Shown here: in pieces, positions 20,428 through 58,795 of the stretch
Numbering within the stretch: the stretch's first letter is position 1
How the letters are laid out: each line of letters starts with the position of its first letter
DNA from: Candidatus Limosilactobacillus merdigallinarum
GTDB lineage: Bacteria > Bacillota > Bacilli > Lactobacillales > Lactobacillaceae
DNA length: 64,000 nt
NCBI GenBank assembly: GCA_019114515.1
Contig: DXFH01000027.1
Coordinates: 1 to 64,000 of the forward strand
Direction of reading: 5' to 3'
Translations under genes and position numbers: made by a program
The notes under the pieces: generated by a model
The model's database searches: none
What the model was told of the DNA's origin: nothing
The model's input: only the letters and a program-made list of their open reading frames with translations

Positions 20428-20660
20428 TAAAAAAAGCGGTGCAATGTGCGCCGCAAAAAAATGCCCTAATGGCATCCTAGTCCTCGATAGCGCACCGTAA
20501 ACATTTGTAGTTTACGACAGTCCGTGATCTCTTAAATCACGACCCGGTTAAACAAGCAGTGATCATGCTTGTCACCTCGGCGACCGCCCCTTTCACGATT
20601 AGTCAACGCCTGATCCTGGCTCTAAATCGCTACTTTTGTTAGTCGCGCCTCTTCGAATGG
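20428..20660 (-). promoter_or_regulatory. lysine riboswitch (L-box) upstream of lysA
   Basis: minus strand: gaagaggcgcgactaac...gtgaaaggggcggtcgccgaggtgacaag...followed by hairpins with U-tracts; upstream of lysA/dap genes. Confidence 0.93.
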
Positions 20661-20665
20661 TTTAA

Positions 20666-40278: not shown

Positions 40279-41121
40279 TTACTTGTTAAATTCAGCATTG
40301 TAGTTCTTCTTTGCACCAGGTGATGCAAAGGTGTTTTCGTATAAGTACTTCTTGGTGATCTTTTCCAGGTAACCTGAGTTGTACAAGTGTTCAATTTCCT
40401 TGTTCAGGTCCTGAGTCAACTTCTTGTTCTTAGCACTCTTGTGTAAGAGCAAGTATGGGCTTCTTTGACCAATTGACTTAGAAACAGCTAGCTTCTTGCC
40501 TTCACTGGTGTTAGCGATCTGCTTGTAAGCCGGGTATGGGTAGATAGCAACGTCGTACTTGCCATTAGCAACTTGCTTTAAAGCATCCGCAGAGGACTGG
40601 TCGCCAATTGCCTGCAGCTTAACCTTATCCTTGTGTGACTTGTTGTAGTCCGAAACAACGCTGTAACGGGCATCATCAGTAGCAACTGGTACCAGTTTCA
40701 GGTTCTTCTTGGCTACTTCGTTCAAGGAAGATGCGGATTTACCGCCCTTCCGATAAACCAGCCGCAGGTCATCAAGACCAACTGCTCGTGTGTGGTAGTA
40801 GGTGCTAAAACGTGACTTGTTGTACCAAGAGTTGTTCAATGCCACATCATACTTGCCACTCTGTAAACCGGAGAAAACGGCATTTTGTGATGTGAAAGTA
40901 GTCTTGAACTTATATTGTGGCATGTCTTTATCAATCTTCTTAATCAAGGCACCATAGTAGCCTTCCGGGCCATGATCGGTATTGACGATATATGCGGAAT
41001 TGCCATTTGGTGCTGCCACGTTAACCGTAGTAGCGGCATGAGCAGCACTAGCCGATGAAAGTAAGACCGTACCAACTAAACCAACGACTGCTAAACGACT
41101 AAATAACTTTTGTAACTTCAT
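40279..41121 (-). CDS. amino-acid ABC transporter substrate-binding protein
   Basis: signal peptide MKLQKLFSRLAVVGLVGTVLLSSASAAHA; SBP_bac_3-type sequence; ATG 41121. Confidence 0.92.
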   Translation of the reverse strand: MKLQKLFSRLAVVGLVGTVLLSSASAAHAATTVNVAAPNGNSAYIVNTDHGPEGYYGALIKKIDKDMPQYKFKTTFTSQNAVFSGLQSGKYDVALNNSWYNKSRFSTYYHTRAVGLDDLRLVYRKGGKSASSLNEVAKKNLKLVPVATDDARYSVVSDYNKSHKDKVKLQAIGDQSSADALKQVANGKYDVAIYPYPAYKQIANTSEGKKLAVSKSIGQRSPYLLLHKSAKNKKLTQDLNKEIEHLYNSGYLEKITKKYLYENTFASPGAKKNYNAEFNK

Positions 41122-41140
41122 AAAAATCATCCTTTCAAAA

Positions 41141-41839
41141 TTAATTGGTTGCTTGTGCATAACGATAGTGACGTTCAACCATCCGCAATGCGATCCCAAA
41201 GATCCAACAGATTGCGATGTAGATAATCAATGCATCAGTATAAGTTTCTAAATACTTAAATCCTTCACTAGAAATGACGTTGGCCTTTCCCATCACTTCT
41301 ACCAAACCAATGTTGTAAACCAAGGCAGTATCCTTGATCAGATCTAACAAAATGTTAGTAAAATTGGGGATCAGGTTGCTAACCAACTGCGGAACCACAA
41401 TTTGCGTCATGGCCACGCGTGGTTGCATGCCAACGGAAATGGCGGCCTCATATTGTCCCGGATCAACTGCATGGTAAGCTGAGCGAATACTTTCTGAGAG
41501 GTTAGCCATTGCGTTCAACCCATAAGCTGAAAACGCGATAATTAGTGGCGGCAAGCCGTTGGGATCAACATGCCAACCTGCGGCCTGCATACTAGTCAAC
41601 AGTTGTGGCAGCCCATAATAAACAACATATAATTGCACCAAAATCGGCGTTCCCCGGATAAACGAGACCAGGGTCGCTAAAACCTGCGATAACACAGGGA
41701 TCTCTTTTTCACGAGCAATGACCACGCCGATAGCTAAGATCAACCCGATCAGTGTGGCTACTAATGCGATCAGCAGTGTTAACGGAACCGCCTGTAAAAT
41801 CTGAGGGAAGGATTCTCTGGCAAAATTGAAATCAAACAT
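41141..41839 (-). CDS. amino-acid ABC transporter permease
   Basis: HisM-type: FIRGTPILVQLYVVYYGLPQ, VDPGQYEAAISVGM. Confidence 0.94.
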   Translation of the reverse strand: MFDFNFARESFPQILQAVPLTLLIALVATLIGLILAIGVVIAREKEIPVLSQVLATLVSFIRGTPILVQLYVVYYGLPQLLTSMQAAGWHVDPNGLPPLIIAFSAYGLNAMANLSESIRSAYHAVDPGQYEAAISVGMQPRVAMTQIVVPQLVSNLIPNFTNILLDLIKDTALVYNIGLVEVMGKANVISSEGFKYLETYTDALIIYIAICWIFGIALRMVERHYRYAQATN

Positions 41840-41852
41840 AATTTTCCTCCTC

Positions 41853-42521
41853 TCACGAAATCACGGCAAAGTGTTTGCGTACCATCCGGAAAATGGCTTC
41901 AATAATCAAAACAATCAGCCAGTAAGTCAAAGCCAGTAAAATAAAGATCTGCAACTGGTCGATACCAGCAGTCTGGTTGGATAAGTTAGAGGCTTCGTTG
42001 TACATGTCATATAAACCGAGAACGTATACCAAAGAGGTGGCCTTGACCAAGCCAATCACTAAGTTCTCCACATTCGGCAGTGCAATCACCGCTGCCTGTG
42101 GCAAAATAATCTGCATGAATGCGTGCCGGTTACTCATCCCGACTGACCGTGCTGCTTCCAGTTGTCCTGGATCAACAGCCAGGTAAGCACTGCGGAAAGC
42201 TTCCGCCAAGTAAGCGCTCCACCCAATTGTCAAGCCAAAGATGCCAAACATTAATCGCGTCCAGTGCTCGATATTAATACCCACAGCTTTCAGTAATACC
42301 GGTAAGCCATAGTAGGACAATAAAAGCATCAATAGTGGTGGCGTCCCCCGCACCAGGTTGAGGTAAAAATCAGCCAGGCTGGACCAGAACTTACCCTTTG
42401 CTAAGCGCATACGGGTTAATAGCAATCCCAATAGCGTAGCCAGAATCAATGACCAAAATAGTAACAGCAGAGTGTTCGGCAGCCCACGTAAGATCACGCT
42501 CATAATTTTGCTTGACTTCAT
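41853..42521 (-). CDS. amino-acid ABC transporter permease
   Basis: HisM-type: LVRGTPPLLMLLLSYYGLP, VDPGQLEAARSVGMSNRHAFMQIILPQA. Confidence 0.94.
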   Translation of the reverse strand: MKSSKIMSVILRGLPNTLLLLFWSLILATLLGLLLTRMRLAKGKFWSSLADFYLNLVRGTPPLLMLLLSYYGLPVLLKAVGINIEHWTRLMFGIFGLTIGWSAYLAEAFRSAYLAVDPGQLEAARSVGMSNRHAFMQIILPQAAVIALPNVENLVIGLVKATSLVYVLGLYDMYNEASNLSNQTAGIDQLQIFILLALTYWLIVLIIEAIFRMVRKHFAVIS

Positions 42522-42535
42522 AAAAAAACCACCAC

Positions 42536-43279
42536 CTAATAATTTTCTGCTAAGGCACTTAAGAATTGCTGCGTTCGCTCTTCCTTAGGATGATCAAATA
42601 CTTGATCAGGCGTCCCACTTTCGACAATCTGCCCATCATCAAAAAAGACAATTCGTGAGGCAACATTTCGCGCAAATGACATCTGGTGGGTTACTACCAC
42701 CATTGTTTGTCCCGCCTGCGCTAGATCACGCATATCATCTAGCACCGTACCTACTAATTCTGGATCCAGTGCCGATGTTGGTTCATCGAACAAGATGACA
42801 TCAGGCTTCAAGACCGTTGCCCGCGCAATCCCAATTCGCTGCTGCTGACCACCAGACAACTGTGAAGGATAATGGTCAGCTTGATTGGCTAACCCAAGTG
42901 ATTCCAATTCCCTTTTAGCAATCGCCATCGCTTGATCTTTCGCCATGCCCTGTCCGTAAATCAAGCCTTCCGCGATGTTTTGCTGGGCCGTCTTATTTTT
43001 GAAGAGGTTGTAATTTTGAAAGACCATCGCACTATGCCGACGAACATACTGAATTTGTTCTTTAGTGGGGTGCGATAAATCAATCGTTTGTTCATTAAAC
43101 TTCATCGTTCCTAAATCAGCATTTTCTAAGAAGTTAAGGTTTCTCAATAAGGTTGTCTTGCCTGAACCCGATGGGCCAATGATGACGACGACTTCACCTT
43201 GGTCTACTTGAAAGTCGATTCCTTTCAGGACCGCGCGCCCGTTAAATTGTTTGCGTAAATTTTTTACCCCTAATAGCAT
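42536..43279 (-). CDS. amino-acid ABC transporter ATP-binding protein
   Basis: [48 protein letters not shown] 43279. Confidence 0.96.
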
Positions 43280-43283
43280 TTCA

Positions 43284-44300
43284 TCACCCCTGATAATCGT
43301 GTGCTGCTTCGATTGCCCACCGTAAATGATCATAATTAATATCCCGCGGTACCGTGCAGTCAGCACCTAGCAGTACGCCGGTGGTGCCAGCTTCATCTAA
43401 TAGGCGCTTAACTTCAGCTTGAATGGCTGCTTTGTCCCCATGGTAAAGAATTCCCTTGGTAGAGTTATCAAAGCCGCCTAATACTGGCCGGTCGTGGAAG
43501 AGCCGCTTTCCTTCGCCTAACGTGAAGCCATCCGTTTTAGTGGCCCAGTTAATTACCTGCAGCGGGTAATCCTTAAACCATTCAAGATGGTTGTAGGCAC
43601 CGTCAAAACCACAGATATGCAAAATGTTCAAACTGCTTTCTTGGTTAATGGCTTCTTGCACCTGCTGGTCAATTGGTTCCATCACTTCTTGGAAGAAATG
43701 CAAGTTATCTAAACGGTCATCCTGCACTGATTGAGTGGAGTAGTAAATCCCGTCAATCCCCGTCTGCATCAATGCATAGACTAATTTATGCAAATCAGCG
43801 GCCATTACTGACAAAACATGCTTAACTAGTTCTGGATCGGCAATGTACAGGTCTGCGAAGCGATGGTCAGCTGCCAGCAAAGGATCAACATAGTGTTCAA
43901 TCAAACCCCACTTGAACAGGTACATGGGAGAAAACACCGTCACAAAGACTGGTTTGTCACCAGCAATCACTTTTTGCTGACGAGCTAATTTTTGCTGGTC
44001 AAGAATCCAGGGATCATCGTCCTCTAAAGGCTTAATGTTATCTAAGTCGTGTGTATCCTGCGGGTTATTCACGCCACGGAAAGGATATGGGAAATAGCCA
44101 TCCAGCATCGTCTTTACAAAATCCAAATCTAAATCTTTGAGGTATTTGCGATGACCATTCAAGTTCACATCGACTACTTCAGGATGTTTGTAGGCATCGG
44201 TAAATTCGTTGTCCGCGAAGTGACGCCAAAATGATGCAGGTACTCCGTTGGTCTTTTGATTATGCAATGCTGCTAATACTTCTTCTCTTGCCAAACTCAT
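43284..44300 (-). CDS. uroporphyrinogen decarboxylase (URO-D)-family protein
   Basis: URO-D/MtaA-like barrel: [22 protein letters not shown]...NILHICGF...[19 protein letters not shown] 44300 after ctaggagg. Confidence 0.8.
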
Positions 44301-44331: not shown

Positions 44332-44370
44332 AAAAAAACTCGCAATCATGACTAACATGGTTGCGAGTTC
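44332..44370 (-). terminator. leader terminator upstream of the URO-D/ABC transporter operon
   Basis: AACTCGCAACCATGttagtCATGATTGCGAGTTTTTTT on the minus strand. Confidence 0.9.
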
Positions 44371-44397: not shown

Positions 44398-44496
44398 TTA
44401 CGCATGTACCGCAAAAAGACCGCCAACTGAAACCATGTCAGTTCGCTTGTTAATGTCAGTACATGCACAACATTCAAAGTTAAACAAACTTAACAT
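44398..44496 (-). CDS. 32-aa Cys-rich leader peptide MLSLFNFECCACTDINKRTDMVSVGGLFAVHA
   Basis: ATG 44496, stop TAA 44398-44400; GAGGAGGAG RBS 7-8 nt upstream; ends about 30 nt before the terminator; absent from the supplied ORF track (below its size cut-off). Confidence 0.8.
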   Translation of the reverse strand: MLSLFNFECCACTDINKRTDMVSVGGLFAVHA

Positions 44497-44528
44497 GATT
44501 TCTCCTCCTCTTCGTTAATGATGTCTAA

Positions 44529-44557
44529 ACTATAACTACTTACAAAAAGATAGTCAA
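44529..44557 (-). promoter_or_regulatory. sigma-A promoter for the leader and operon
   Basis: TTGACT-17 bp-TATAGT on the minus strand. Confidence 0.85.
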
Positions 44558-44582
44558 GCCTAAATACCAAATTTTTTGATTT

Positions 44583-45020
44583 TTATTTTTCGTACAGGAT
44601 AGTAACGGGACCGTCATTAAGCAAGTCGACCTGCATGTCTGCACCAAACTTTCCCGTCGCTACCGGGACTCCAGTAGCCCGCAGCTTAGCATTAAACTGA
44701 TCATACAGTTTTTCTGCTAATTCTGGCTTAGCGGCTTTTGAAAAGCCTGGGCGGTTACCATGTTTGACATCCGCATACAGAGTGAACTGTGAAATCGACA
44801 GAATCGCACCCTTCACATCTTTTAGCCCTAGGTTCATCTTACCGGGTTCACTTTCAAATACCCGTAAGTTGGTTACCTTGTGCACCATCCAGTCAAGCGT
44901 CTCTTCGTCATCGTCAGGGCCAAACCCTACTAGCAACATATAGCCTCGCTGAATTTTACCAATCACTTCACCATCAACGCTGACTGAGGCGTGTTTTACT
45001 CGCTGTAAAACAATTCGCAT
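44583..45020 (-). CDS. dtd: D-aminoacyl-tRNA deacylase
   Basis: [44 protein letters not shown]. Confidence 0.97.
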
Positions 45021-58319: not shown

Positions 58320-58590
58320 CAAAATAAAAAGCCTTCCGTCCCCTCTTTATGGGACGAAAGGCTTCTTTCCGCGGTGCCACCCAAATTATCCGAAAACTCA
58401 GATCTCTTAGTGAGTACATTCATACTCATCCGACGATAACGTGTCGGCAACGGCTAAGTCTACTTTGGAATAACCATTTGGGTTAGCAACTGGAAAGGGT
58501 TTTTCAACGCGGCAGGGTCTGCTAAGTTCTCACTATCCTTAGCTCACTGGACGAATTACCAACGTTTACTCGTCTTTCTTATCGTTTTTT
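58320..58590 (-). promoter_or_regulatory. T-box leader of asnS
   Basis: GGGTGGCACCGCGG T-box on the minus strand and AAGCCTTtcGTCCC...GGGACggAAGGCTTTTTA terminator. Confidence 0.93.
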
Positions 58591-58795
58591 AAACTATAGT
58601 TATTATTTTAGACAATCTCAACTTGAAGTCAAGTTTCTTTTGAGTGGAAACTGTAATCAAACACTGTCAATTGGCGTTAAACCATAAATTGAATACCTTC
58701 CCTGAATTTCATTATTAAGGGAAAATTCAGGGAAAAACGTCAAAAATTGGTATAGCTATAACTTCCGTAATAAGTTAATTCCTAGTTGAATAGGA

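Follow-up and report, generated by a model that had tools for sequence, protein, structure and literature searches.

A candidate cysteine-responsive leader-peptide attenuator and its family in Limosilactobacillus

The window, that is, the whole stretch of 64,000 nucleotides analysed here, carries an open reading frame of 32 codons which very probably encodes the leader peptide of a transcription attenuator that is mediated by the ribosome, responds to cysteine and controls the downstream URO-D/ABC operon. The preliminary description had read this frame as a cysteine-sensing leader. The reading is supported by what is seen in the sequence itself: the open reading frame with its conserved Cys codons, the terminator, mutually exclusive and covarying RNA pairings, and a context of cysteine genes. 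Beyond the earlier reading, we find that the C-terminal half of the open reading frame is an RNA pairing element and that the family to which it belongs is a regulon of several operons.

On the minus strand, the promoter, the ribosome binding site, the 32-codon frame, the terminator and the URO-D gene are arranged as had been described; dtd lies 5' of them, and the ABC genes follow the URO-D gene (Table 1). The URO-D family gene is the predicted first gene of the operon controlled by the leader. The promoter pattern gave one match against 1.8 expected, so that the match alone is not beyond chance; TTGAC-type -35 boxes are seen repeatedly upstream of homologous leaders. The leader region folds far more stably than shuffled sequences (z = -5.7).

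Table 1. Features of the leader locus, its operon and two other regulatory RNAs in the window
Feature	Position	Strand	Remarks
dtd	44583-45020	minus	5' neighbour of the leader region
Promoter, sigma-70-type (predicted), TTGACT-17-TATAGT	44529..44557	minus	-35 boxes of this kind also precede homologous leaders
Shine-Dalgarno sequence GAGGAGGAG	upstream of ATG at 44496	minus	
Region 1, GAAATCATGTTA	44491..44502	minus	Overlaps leader Shine-Dalgarno/start codon; covariation, fold
Leader open reading frame, MLSLFNFECCACTDINKRTDMVSVGGLFAVHA	44398..44496	minus	32 codons; ATG 44496, TAA end 44398; Cys codons 9, 10, 12
Regulatory Cys codons, TGT TGT GCA TGT	44461..44472	minus	Last Cys 22 nt, invariant Cys 28 nt 5' of CTGACATG
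Region 2, conserved RNA core CGAACTGACATGGTTTCAGTTGG	44423..44445	minus	Within the open reading frame; conserved out of frame in second G017:C45 copy
Intrinsic terminator (3:4)	44332..44369	minus	-20.0 kcal/mol; stem of 14 bp at 44369-44337, loop TTAGT, T-tract 44338-44332
Region 3, AACCATGTTAGT	44351..44362	minus	Terminator 5' arm and loop
URO-D family protein (PF01208, MtaA/CmuA-like)	43284..44300	minus	Operon gene 1
Amino-acid ABC ATPase	42536..43279	minus	Best score with L-cystine TcyN model, below cut-off
Two ABC permeases (PF00528)	41141..42521	minus	
Family-3 solute-binding protein (PF00497)	40279..41124	minus	
Lysine riboswitch	20479-20661	minus	Above Rfam gathering score; ordinary
T-box leader	58347-58591	minus	Above Rfam gathering score; ordinary

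A search with the window peptide led to homologous peptides in relatives within the genus. Their alignment has an invariant start codon, Cys codons and the core CGAACTGACATGGTTTCAGTTGG, and a variable N-terminal part. We built a covariance model from 15 homologous leaders and found 28 elements in 22 of 54 Limosilactobacillus genomes, all scoring at least 48.7 bits, with the next match at 27.7 bits. Named carriers are L. secaliphilus, coleohominis, gastricus, caecicola, vaginalis, pontis, portuensis and urinaemulieris; the closest relative of the window leader is a secaliphilus-type leader. Among 401 Lactobacillaceae genomes from 40 genera, the model gave no strong match outside Limosilactobacillus, within the sensitivity set by a first-pass filter. 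A loose DNA pattern of the core, run on the 401 family genomes, gave mostly chance-looking matches outside the genus, and the one examined in its context was coding sequence. With a stricter pattern and 85,462 named genomes the true matches were confined to Limosilactobacillus-type records. This pattern also hit unrelated organisms (Macrococcoides, an alphaproteobacterial MAG and others), where those matches inspected are ordinary coding sequence and were discarded. An intrinsic terminator with a T-tract lies between leader frame and first gene in all 27 leaders scanned. Relatives which keep the terminator have conserved both the open reading frame and its Cys codons, apart from one decaying copy in which a single Cys is left. 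The refuting condition named beforehand, absence of such conservation, was not borne out.

The skew towards cysteine, noted at first for the window peptide alone, is borne out by 23 distinct homologous leaders. Upstream of the core 60 of 388 codons are Cys codons, where 2.5 are expected from the genes of the window. This is a 24-fold enrichment (P = 3.5e-62, to be taken as indicative only since the leaders are related), and no other residue reaches even 2-fold in this part of the 23 leaders. The spacing is fixed as well. Most leaders have 22 nt between the last Cys codon and CTGACATG, one clade has 28 nt and a frame-shifted copy 21 nt. By inspection, a Cys codon is found at the 28-nt position of all in-frame leaders. 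The Cys pattern varies among the leaders (CC.C, CCC, CCCC, MCMC and CCQ).

We then consider the genes behind the element. The question raised beforehand was whether it always precedes URO-D/ABC operons. In one direction this holds, as the element is found just upstream of all 18 URO-D orthologues of the genus (in genome G027 the copy is degenerate and has only one Cys), but the remaining ten elements are found before transporter or sulfur operons of other kinds. These comprise a permease-permease-ATPase-SBP operon in four genomes (those inspected have it at the same position behind dtd), operons with MetQ-type or cystine-like solute-binding proteins (SBP), an M20 amidohydrolase-MetQ-MetN-permease operon and, in L. 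gastricus (G017), a MetA-like gene followed by cysK. At one of the ten loci (L072, after 1610; G029:C1) an open reading frame for a group II intron-type reverse transcriptase directly follows the leader terminator and has apparently been inserted 3' of the leader. The next gene begins about 100 nt from the element, and the same kinds of operon are always found downstream. The CysK protein of L. gastricus scores above the TIGR01139 cut-off. Since a protein annotated as MetA works as serine acetyltransferase in L. paracasei (PMC6004538), the L. gastricus operon is probably a cysteine-synthesis operon, and it is the main functional anchor of the element to cysteine. The element thus stands before genes of amino-acid supply, the MetA-like/CysK operon in one genome and cystine-like and MetQ-type transporters in others. 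We further note that 3' of dtd the leader is fixed while the operon differs, being URO-D/ABC in the window (44398-44583) and permease-permease-ATPase-SBP at the loci L058, L061 and L062. It looks as if either a cassette or the operon had been swapped.

Two alternative pairings could form in the leader RNA. Region 1 pairs over 12 bp with region 2 (44440-44429), and region 3 is complementary over 12 bp to nearly the same part of region 2 (44442-44431). In an alignment of 15 distinct leaders, 87.7% of the cells of pairing 1:2 are paired compared with 29-46% when the strands are slid, and 14 cells show double changes compared with 4.2 in shuffles. The leaders' own 1:2 duplexes reach -16.9 kcal/mol against -13.9 +/- 0.5 kcal/mol for permuted ones, a gap of 3 kcal/mol or about 6 sd. 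The 2:3 duplexes (-12.5 kcal/mol) are more stable than shuffled ones (-7.8), but permuted duplexes (-12.0) are nearly as stable because the motif is shared among the leaders. Pairing 2:3 has two covarying positions, one with G/A against C/T (P about 7e-4) and one with C/T against G/A (P about 6e-4). These values come from Fisher tests which treat related leaders as independent, at sites chosen as best matches, and the fit is poor in two leaders, G020 and G014. Covariation is strong for 1:2 and weaker for 2:3. The two pairings exclude each other, and 2:3 excludes the terminator, as in the trp-type attenuators.

Folding of the RNA agrees with this arrangement. In nascent free RNA up to region 3, the 23 leaders form on average 9.2 pairs of 1:2 and 0.6 pairs of 2:3. 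When a ribosome stalled at the Cys codons is imitated by masking the RNA that it covers and the RNA behind it, 2:3 rises to 9.4 pairs on average, and 21 of the 23 leaders form 4 or more. Shuffling of region 2 lowers 2:3 to 4.0 and 1:2 to 1.3 pairs. Once region 4 is present, the terminator 3:4 beats 2:3 at equilibrium in both states, the one with the stalled ribosome included, and therefore the switch would have to be kinetic. Kinetic control is normal for attenuators. A ribosome at the stop codon leaves region 2 uncovered in the window copy, so that the cysteine-replete state would have to rely on the re-forming of 1:2.

From these features we infer translation of the leader, stalling, the direction of the response and a kinetic, co-transcriptional commitment, and we suggest that attenuation proceeds as follows. 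With ample charged Cys-tRNA the ribosomes would pass the Cys codons. Region 2 could then pair again with region 1 at the leader's Shine-Dalgarno sequence and start codon, region 3 would stay free and the terminator 3:4 would form. With little charged Cys-tRNA, a ribosome would stall at codons 9-12. It would then stand between regions 1 and 2 and hold the two apart. Region 2, by then some 10-16 nt beyond the leading edge of the ribosome, could pair with the emerging region 3. This pairing would pre-empt the terminator, and the URO-D/ABC operon would be transcribed. A leader that is not translated at all would form 1:2, and transcription would end.

The nature of the conserved core bears on a different reading, in which the nascent chain CC.CT...RTDMVSVG is an arrest peptide and itself stalls the ribosome upon a ligand or a redox state. 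Indeed, the C-terminal residues of the aligned peptides seem to be conserved. However, in the second element of G017:C45 (L067:2643-2762) the start codon, the Shine-Dalgarno sequence and the Cys codons (MKSLNQAMICMCTPAKS...) share one frame in which the identical core is read as (S)ELTWFQLG, and a stop codon just 5' of the core closes the RTDMVSVG frame. This copy represents a natural frameshift between the Cys codons and the core RNA. As it keeps the RNA and yet reads it in another frame, we regard the C-terminal RTDMVSVG, judged by its sequence, as an RNA element rather than a peptide. In the core codons ACT and GTT the third base is fixed in all 22 other leaders; the second base of GTT, a codon of region 2, varies, which is not what an arrest peptide would need, nor are the varying Cys patterns. 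We therefore consider an arrest peptide very improbable.

Slightly less probable still is a functional small protein that binds a metal or thiols, whose own transcript would end at the terminator while the operon is supplied separately or by read-through. The good Shine-Dalgarno sequence, the promoter and the Cys cluster would suit such a gene, but its N-terminal part is highly variable and has no fixed CxxC, no Pfam or NCBIfam family matches the peptide, and the frame is tied throughout to the kinds of operon named above, with the next gene about 100 nt away. The least probable reading is that a riboswitch or T-box senses cysteine or tRNA-Cys directly and the open reading frame is incidental. 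The leader is structured and ends in a terminator, and in other lactobacilli Cys/Met genes are under T-boxes (PMC6004538). Against this, no Rfam family reaches its gathering score on the leader, where a weak sRNA match stays far below it, and the T-box covariance model has no match at the leader locus. The sensitivity was adequate, as the same Rfam scan found the one T-box of the window elsewhere (Table 1). The conservation of Cys codons in the frame of the start codon would also be left unexplained. A Cys-codon leader attenuator agrees with all the tests made here.

Leaders rich in Cys codons are not restricted to this family. A second, unrelated class with the pattern CC[AP]CC...NMLF (consensus CCPCC...NMLF) occurs in Limosilactobacillus at the loci L143, L145-L153, L162 and L163. 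It precedes an SDF-family symporter (PF00375), by our reading a TcyP-like, cystine-symporter-like protein, a Peptidase_C26 gene and a permease-permease ABC operon, the latter being the one that carries the first class in L. coleohominis. A terminator-like hairpin follows each of these leaders. The third class, MTQSMFNAINCCCRTTRFWRCSAC, precedes cysK2-ctl1-cysE2 on L. paracasei plasmids (L165:2714-2788 and L166:2739-2813; the cysK2 region was examined in plasmid records), where its frame is absent from the PLSDB gene table and is followed by the terminator GGGCGCGA...TCGCGCCC. The loci L185-L196 place this class before cysK-ctl-cysE in Lacticaseibacillus and other genera. It is present in 29 of 381 Lactobacillaceae genomes from 6 genera, and in all eight cases checked it lies upstream of cysK2-ctl1. 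A pattern for the published cysK2 palindrome had no match in 151 genomes. The L. paracasei operon is induced without cysteine, the high coverage of its 5'-UTR suggests premature termination, and the mechanism of its cysteine response "is yet to be discovered" (PMC6004538). These data give indirect support to Cys-leader attenuation in the Lactobacillaceae, though not to the Limosilactobacillus element. We consider it likely that cysteine supply in this family is widely run by leader-peptide attenuators which have arisen at least three times, as the Limosilactobacillus class, the CC.CC...NMLF class and the NCCCRTTRFWRCSAC class before cysK-ctl-cysE in six genera. If true, the NCCCRTTRFWRCSAC class would explain the published response of cysK2-ctl1-cysE2 and thereby offers a candidate answer to how the methionine-to-cysteine operon of L. 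paracasei, which matters for cheese flavour, senses cysteine. The Limosilactobacillus element in turn provides a sequence-based way to find cysteine-regulated operons, and hence substrates for anonymous transporters such as the one of the URO-D/ABC operon.

Lactobacilli are textbook users of T-boxes, and to our knowledge regular leader-peptide attenuators are rare in Bacillota. In the open literature, to which our search was mostly limited, we found no description of a Cys leader peptide in lactobacilli. Leader-peptide attenuation as such is classical, and Cys leaders are already known from mycobacteria (PMC1262725) and Rhodobacterales (PMC8632094). A family of Cys-codon attenuators in Limosilactobacillus whose leader hides its own start site nevertheless seems to be new.

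Among the known systems, the Cys/Met T-boxes of Lacticaseibacillus paracasei (PMC6004538) likewise cause cysteine-dependent premature termination before ABC transporter operons, but they are tRNA-binding RNAs without an open reading frame, and the Limosilactobacillus leader has no T-box match. Regular leader peptides that replace T-boxes in Bacillota have been described for histidine in bacilli (PMC2965389) and for branched-chain amino acids, as in the leucine-rich attenuator peptide of S. aureus (PMC5794164); they concern other amino acids and genes and are unrelated in sequence. The uORFC-8-2 of Rhodobacterales, for which ribosome-mediated attenuation has been proposed, shares tandem Cys codons and an intrinsic terminator but is an alphaproteobacterial element of other sequence and structure found only upstream of cysS (PMC8632094). 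Mycobacteria have polycysteine leaderless open reading frames upstream of cys operons which respond to cysteine, according to the account of Canestrari 2020 in PMC13236596, and such Cys leaders had been predicted before (PMC1262725). These are leaderless, their Cys runs lie close to the stop codon and a conserved terminator hairpin is lacking, whereas the Limosilactobacillus leader is led by a Shine-Dalgarno sequence, has its Cys codons in mid-frame and a strong intrinsic terminator, and is unrelated in sequence. The presence of Shine-Dalgarno sequence and terminator rules out membership in the mycobacterial class. Closest in design are the trp/his-type attenuators of Proteobacteria. They too have a short, Shine-Dalgarno-led open reading frame in which codons for one amino acid are clustered, three RNA pairings that exclude each other, and an intrinsic terminator before the operon. 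In Limosilactobacillus, however, the amino acid is cysteine, region 1 is the leader's own Shine-Dalgarno sequence and start codon, the host genus belongs to a family known for T-boxes, and one and the same region-2 RNA serves in front of several unrelated operons.
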